Of a stretch of DNA of 32,135 nt, positions 12,715-13,102 are shown piece by piece. The notes beneath the pieces are model-generated. The model had not been told where the DNA came from. It was given only the letters and a program-made list of their open reading frames with translations, and ran no database searches. The position numbers were made by a program, and so were the translations under genes. Position 1 is the first letter of the stretch; each line of letters starts with the position of its first letter. Origin of the DNA: Smithella sp. (lineage in GTDB: Bacteria; Desulfobacterota; Syntrophia; Syntrophales; Smithellaceae); contig JAGOMJ010000027.1 in assembly GCA_017993615.1 (NCBI GenBank), positions 1 to 32,135 of the forward strand. Reading direction: 5' to 3'.

Positions 12715-12937
12715 TAAGCAAAGAAACAGGGCAAGGGGATTCATTACATTGTTGTGATGAAAGGGAAAGAGCTGATTCCCAATCCTTATAAATTCCCGCC
12801 GAAGACCCGACCTAAGCGGCCGCTTTTGAGCAAAGACGGTTCTGTGTTGATTTATGAAAAATCCATGTCAGCAGGTAAATTCTTTCTCTATTCCCCGGAT
12901 GGGAATCATAAGCTTGCGGGTTCAGGTGGACTTTGTT

Positions 12938-12962
12938 CAGCCAAGTCTTTTTGACTTGGCTG
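12938..12962 (+). repeat. Hairpin 1 of a REP-like inverted pair
   Basis: CAGCCAAGTC (12938-12947) and GACTTGGCTG (12953-12962) form a perfect 10-base stem around a TTTTT loop. It is preceded by GTT, so the outward flank reads GTTCAG, matching the flank of hairpin 2 on the opposite strand. There is no T-run after it, which argues against a simple terminator and for a repeated palindromic element. Confidence 0.7.
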
Positions 12963-12981
12963 TATTCAAACACAGATAAAT

Positions 12982-13004
12982 AGTCGAGTCCAAAAGACTC
13001 GACT
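12982..13004 (-). repeat. Hairpin 2 of the REP-like inverted pair
   Basis: AGTCGAGTC (12982-12990) and GACTCGACT (12996-13004) form a perfect 9-base stem around a CAAAA loop. Read on the minus strand it begins GTTCAG and matches hairpin 1 except for two substitutions in each arm, each compensated by the partner arm, plus one loop base. It is therefore an inverted, covarying copy of hairpin 1, 19 bases away. Confidence 0.7.
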
Positions 13005-13005
13005 G

Positions 13006-13039
13006 AACTTAGGGGGCTGTTAAGCGCTTTAGCCAAGTT
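13006..13039 (+). repeat. Imperfect third hairpin with a repeated half-site
   Basis: AACTT plus GGCT (13006-13010, 13015-13018) can pair with AGCC plus AAGTT (13031-13039), leaving a 4-base bulge and a 12-base loop. The right arm repeats AGCCAAGT from hairpin 1, suggesting a decayed third copy of the same element. Confidence 0.35.
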
Positions 13040-13102
13040 GGTATATCATGAATAATGTGTCTGGCGGCTCAAAGCAATCAAAGCATATTCTTTTTTTTTA
13101 AA

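Follow-up and report, generated by a model that had tools for sequence, protein, structure and literature searches.

Our results indicate that the two inverted hairpins lying between recG and an acylase gene of Smithella sp. make up one copy of a dispersed repeat that is non-autonomous and REPIN-like. The DNA analysed is the whole of contig JAGOMJ010000027.1 (32,135 nucleotides), referred to here as the window. The repeat is a head-to-head doublet of two unlike halves, A and B, which has multiplied in Smithella and lies mostly in intergenic positions, and we give this reading a probability of about 0.7.

The doublet occupies positions 12935-13008 of the window, where two perfect hairpins, A (12935-12962) and B (12982-13008, inverted), stand with the tetranucleotide GTTC outermost. 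On the + strand, the tag of hairpin A (12935-12938) is followed by a 9-bp stem with the loop TTTTT (12939-12961; 49.9 bits against the covariance model of the family), whose arms are AGCCAAGTC (12939-12947) and GACTTGGCT (12953-12961), and then by a G at 12962. The C of the tag can pair with this G, and the stem of A amounts to 10 bp if C12938-G12962 is counted, that of B being 9 bp. Exact copies of hairpin A are also found at other places in the host genome. A spacer of 20 nt (12962-12981), which resembles the spacers of other copies, leads to hairpin B on the - strand (12982-13004; 46.6 bits), with the arms AGTCGAGTC (12982-12990) and GACTCGACT (12996-13004), the loop CAAAA as read on the + strand, and its own GTTC tag at 13005-13008 (- strand; GAAC on the + strand). 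In a repeat search of the window the halves appear as a single inverted pair of 27 nt with 81% complementarity. Their stems differ at position 3 (C/T) and position 5 (A/G), with matching differences on the other side of the stem (G/A and T/C), so that both changes are compensated; the two inverted hairpins, the common outer flank and the two compensated differences described in the sequence-only reading are thus all present. Folded as single-stranded DNA, the doublet gives one hairpin for each half (z = -5.8, matched by none of 200 shuffles), and as RNA its minimum-energy form is one long imperfect hairpin spanning the whole doublet. The pair is not a chance occurrence, given that the full pattern at up to three mismatches has 26 places per strand in the host genome, against 2 for the reversed control, and that the window has exactly two matches to the half-pattern, where 0.31 would be expected by chance at ≤3 mismatches.

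The earlier proposal that the pair is one unit of a genomic repeat family was borne out by searches with the pattern and with a covariance model, which place copies both in the host genome and in its congeners. The model rests on 34 distinct hairpins. Run against the host genome (2.52 Mb in 105 contigs, 97.7% complete and, like the other assemblies, a draft) it gave 29 matches, two of which are the same palindrome on both strands, leaving about 28 hairpins, at the low end of the published REP copy-number range. The range of the family is at genus level, that of Smithella: 16 congeners have 0-15 matches each, other genera of the same family only a few, as traces, and 24 genomes from other families of the order have none. 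Exact matches in named genome records fall mostly in Smithella or Syntrophaceae, with two other records; an exact match in Haliea, with a different loop and no partner hairpin, is likely to be due to chance. Viral contigs searched for an exact match gave none, Rfam returned only chance-level matches to microRNA families, far below gathering scores, and none of the papers searched joins Smithella with 'repetitive extragenic palindromic'. Over 63 distinct copies the tag has G in first position in 63, T in second in 56, T in third in 62 and C in fourth in 57, the foot being GTTC in most. Nearly all of the host's hairpins are situated between ORFs. The neighbouring genes are unrelated (recG/acylase, selA, thiolase/phosphoglycerate mutase, peptidase U32, aminotransferase, hrpA), and copies are found between co-directional, convergent and divergent genes, and also within a reading frame. 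As palindromic repeats of 20-40 bp, mostly between genes and in many copies, they are REPs in the loose sense.

As in REPINs, the unit that is copied is the doublet, which has two unlike halves here. Among 77 hairpins at 44 loci there are 26 close pairs, a few of them not independent (three tandem copies at contig C54, orthologous copies at selA), and all 26 are head-to-head with GTTC outermost. Where both halves could be typed, 21 of 22 pairs combine one A-type half (CCAAG) with one B-type half (TCGAG). Moreover, the likeness between copies at unrelated loci runs through the spacer (84-91%), reaching 91% over 81 nt between the window copy and that of contig C45. Doublets are about 74-90 bp long, with spacer lengths clustering at 13, 19-20 and 32 nt, and the over-represented unit is the inverted doublet with its tag outermost, as the definition of a REPIN demands.

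At the window site the doublet is a derived insertion, given that in four congeners (G005, G007, G008 and G010) the recG-acylase gap measures some 40-80 bp and is without it. The gap of the window is 388 bp and contains a WD40-like gene fragment (about 190 bp), the doublet and a further repeat. The truncated fragment lies directly to the left of the doublet, in a frame at 12718-12954 (+ strand) that ends inside hairpin A, and has 64% amino acid identity to a 377-aa WD40-like protein that adjoins another doublet in contig C45. The window doublet arrived along with, or adjacent to, other DNA, and the insertion junctions are not readable exactly, as the relatives are only about 75-80% identical and the insertion includes the gene fragment. 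The window copy is probably without essential function at this locus. Directly to the right of the doublet, at 13025-13061, there is a second short repeat (TTTAGCCAAGTTGGTATATCATGAATAATGTGTCTGG region) with matches of 86-92% in G002, G004, G008 and G013 and none elsewhere in the host genome.

A broader proposal, tentative and rather unlikely, is that the family constitutes a third tag class (GTTC) of REPIN-like doublets with fixed unlike halves, moved by a non-RAYT enzyme, and that the doublets may also be points of recombination at which gene cassettes are acquired or duplicated. The idea of recombination points comes from toxin-antitoxin pairs by copies at three congeneric loci, from the duplication of the hrpA end and from the foreign fragment that abuts the window copy. 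The toxin-antitoxin pairs (ParE-like, HicAB and ParDE-like) are found beside or between copies at L153 (G011:C331), L151 (G013:C249) and L208 (G009:C170). The pair at G011:C331 is flanked by two copies in direct orientation, all of it lying between a dinB-like and a lexA-like gene, and at G015:C6 a single copy is found between the same two genes. In the host, a doublet lies in frame in the 3' part of hrpA (DUF3418; L022 4669-5315, G000:C54:36668-37314) and contributes about 23 residues. A unit of 290 bp, comprising doublet and hrpA end, is in tandem there, three doublets enclosing two gene-end copies, an arrangement that unequal crossing-over between doublets would give. The copies at C5 and G013:C249 had been considered orthologous, and this was dropped, as the element is in different gaps of the same neighbourhood.

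The position of the doublet, between the convergent genes recG and acylase, would suit a transcription terminator that works in both directions, and the orthologous spacers of G007 and G008 do hold a terminator-type inverted repeat with flanking A/T runs (that of G005 holds a different palindrome). However, neither hairpin runs directly from its stem into a U-run, as an intrinsic terminator does: hairpin A is followed by GTATTC and hairpin B, on the - strand, by ATTTATC. The single terminator-like match, on the - strand, has to be read against a scan that gives 1 site, and 1.1 in shuffles, and the sequence belongs to a repeat family. A dedicated terminator role is therefore unlikely: the U-run is missing, and elsewhere the family occurs between gene pairs of every orientation, whether co-directional, convergent or divergent, and even within a reading frame. 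A secondary effect on mRNA ends is possible, and at the window site the doublet may have come to act as a weak 3'-end element.

That the pair is a canonical REP or REPIN mobilised by a resident RAYT, as the sequence-only reading had suggested, was not borne out; it is now quite improbable and, for known RAYTs, largely refuted. The anatomy is alike, with inverted doublets and the tag outermost, and RAYT-type Y1 genes are common in congeners, but the tag is GTTC and not GTAG or GTGG, and the GT[AG]G foot by which RAYT-linked REPs are defined (PMC6006769) is present in 0 of 63 distinct copies. No RAYT was found in the host genome (draft, 97.7% complete), whose only Y1_Tnp gene is of the IS200 type, and no Y1_Tnp gene at all in G011, which has about 14 GTTC copies. 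The RAYT-locus flanks examined in congeners (about 1.5 kb on each side where the contig allows) contain no GTTC hairpin; they carry GTAG REPs or no REP at all, with at least four in the former group, and in several these REPs are of the type GTAGGGCGCGTTCCCCGAACGCGCC. The genes at L106, L109, L111 and L112 are ordinary Smithella RAYT genes with GTAG REPs in their flanks. The GTAG-REP and GTTC families are decoupled, as their copy numbers do not go together: GTAG matches number 141 in G004, 34 in G015, 24 in G008 and 2 (weak) in the host, and GTTC hairpins 4, 1, 4 and about 28, respectively.

Other candidates fared no better. The IS200-type TnpA gene of the host, on the short contig C8 (L029 3001-3430), runs into the contig end, which cuts off its right end. 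It was rejected as mobiliser because the hairpin at its left end, upstream of the gene (CCACAGGCGTGAGCCTGTGG), is unrelated to the GTTC hairpins, and because G011, with many copies, has no Y1 gene. On comparison of the left end only, the end hairpins of an IS200/IS605-derived miniature element of this TnpA are likewise not those of the doublet. No autonomous element, with hairpins around a transposase gene, was seen, the neighbours being ordinary genes at all host copies examined and at many in congeners. An integron attC site was rejected by inspection, with the R-box arrangement the wrong way round (GTT outside). For the REPIN-like, non-autonomous repeat that we favour, the mobiliser would not be of the resident RAYT type, and may have been lost from these genomes or not be recognisable in them. 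By analogy with REPINs, the doublet may have spread as a unit via a single-stranded hairpin intermediate that a trans-acting endonuclease of the Y1/HUH type would cleave at its GTTC foot, and an HUH-type enzyme of this kind seems to be the likeliest mobiliser.

The compensated pairs had been taken as a sign of selection on the hairpin, and this holds for the family, though not for the window site, where the compensation did not arise. In the 34-sequence alignment, 92.9% of cells are paired (85.1% when shuffled), six pairs are changed on both sides (3.3 when shuffled) and double-change cells number 39 against 12.4, a value reached by 0 of 500 shuffles; sliding the partners abolishes the signal. 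Part of this covariation goes back to a single ancient A/B split that was passed on to many copies, so that the cells are not independent events, and compensated variation beyond the split is seen, for example, in the first stem pair (A-T, G-C, T-A). For the family, the covariation in these 34 sequences supports constraint at the level of the hairpin. In the window pair, the A/B compensation reflects two fixed half-types that co-occur in almost every doublet. Much of the family is old and not actively moving, given that the selA copy is common to four species (the host, G004, G008 and G011). The stems of the selA copies are less changed than the spacer, with an unpaired change in G004 and G008 and a G-T wobble in G008, and no compensation is seen at single loci. 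Old copies, such as that at C5 and others, lose pairing uncompensated and keep 5-7 of 9 pairs. Since compensation is family-wide but absent at single loci, and old copies lose pairs, constraint on multiplying copies followed by decay fits better than per-site upkeep by the host. That the host maintains each individual copy as a binding site or regulatory RNA is the least probable reading, for although family-wide stem covariation and the retention of the selA hairpins in four species, with stems less changed than spacer, speak for it, hairpin numbers differ greatly from one congener to another (0 to about 28) and pairing is lost without compensation in old copies, including selA in G004 and G008.

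One genus holds both RAYT-linked GTAG repeats and transposase-less doublets, and from species to species the copy numbers of the two change independently of each other. Smithella hence lends itself to comparative work on an open question, the spread of REP families that have no transposase of their own, for example those of the CGTC kind, and the fixed A+B make-up is a concrete substrate for candidate enzymes.

REPINs have been described as REP doublets that form hairpins (Bertels and Rainey 2011, PMC3116915). The Smithella family is like them in its inverted doublet with the tag outermost, its extragenic position, the doublet as replicating unit and a spacer conserved less than the hairpins, and unlike them in its GTTC tag, its low copy number (about 28 hairpins) and its two unlike halves (A and B), and in that no RAYT is found beside it or in the host genome; nor does it have the GT[AG]G foot of RAYT-linked REPs (PMC6006769). 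The GTAG REPs of congeneric Smithella are also short palindromes in inverted arrangements, and stand side by side with GTTC repeats downstream of selA in G004 and G008, but they have another tag and stem (GTAGGGACTGTTCCCCGAACAGTCC type), flank RAYT genes and are nearly absent from the host. CGTC REPs carry the tag CGTC, TGTC or CCTC, A-T pairs at stem positions 1-2 and a CCA tail (Di Nocera et al. 2013, PMC3733652). With these the GTTC doublets share a stem of 8-9 bp, a loop of 4-5 nt and the absence of a linked transposase, as well as mostly head-to-head dimers, common heterodimers, rare clusters and some intragenic units; they differ in the tag, and have neither the A-T pairs at the start of the stem nor the CCA tail. 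The GTTC doublets are thus a new REP-like family, REPIN-like in behaviour and outside the GTAG/RAYT and CGTC classes. In overall layout they come closest to the CGTC REPs, which likewise lack a transposase, but tag, stem ends and tail set the two apart.
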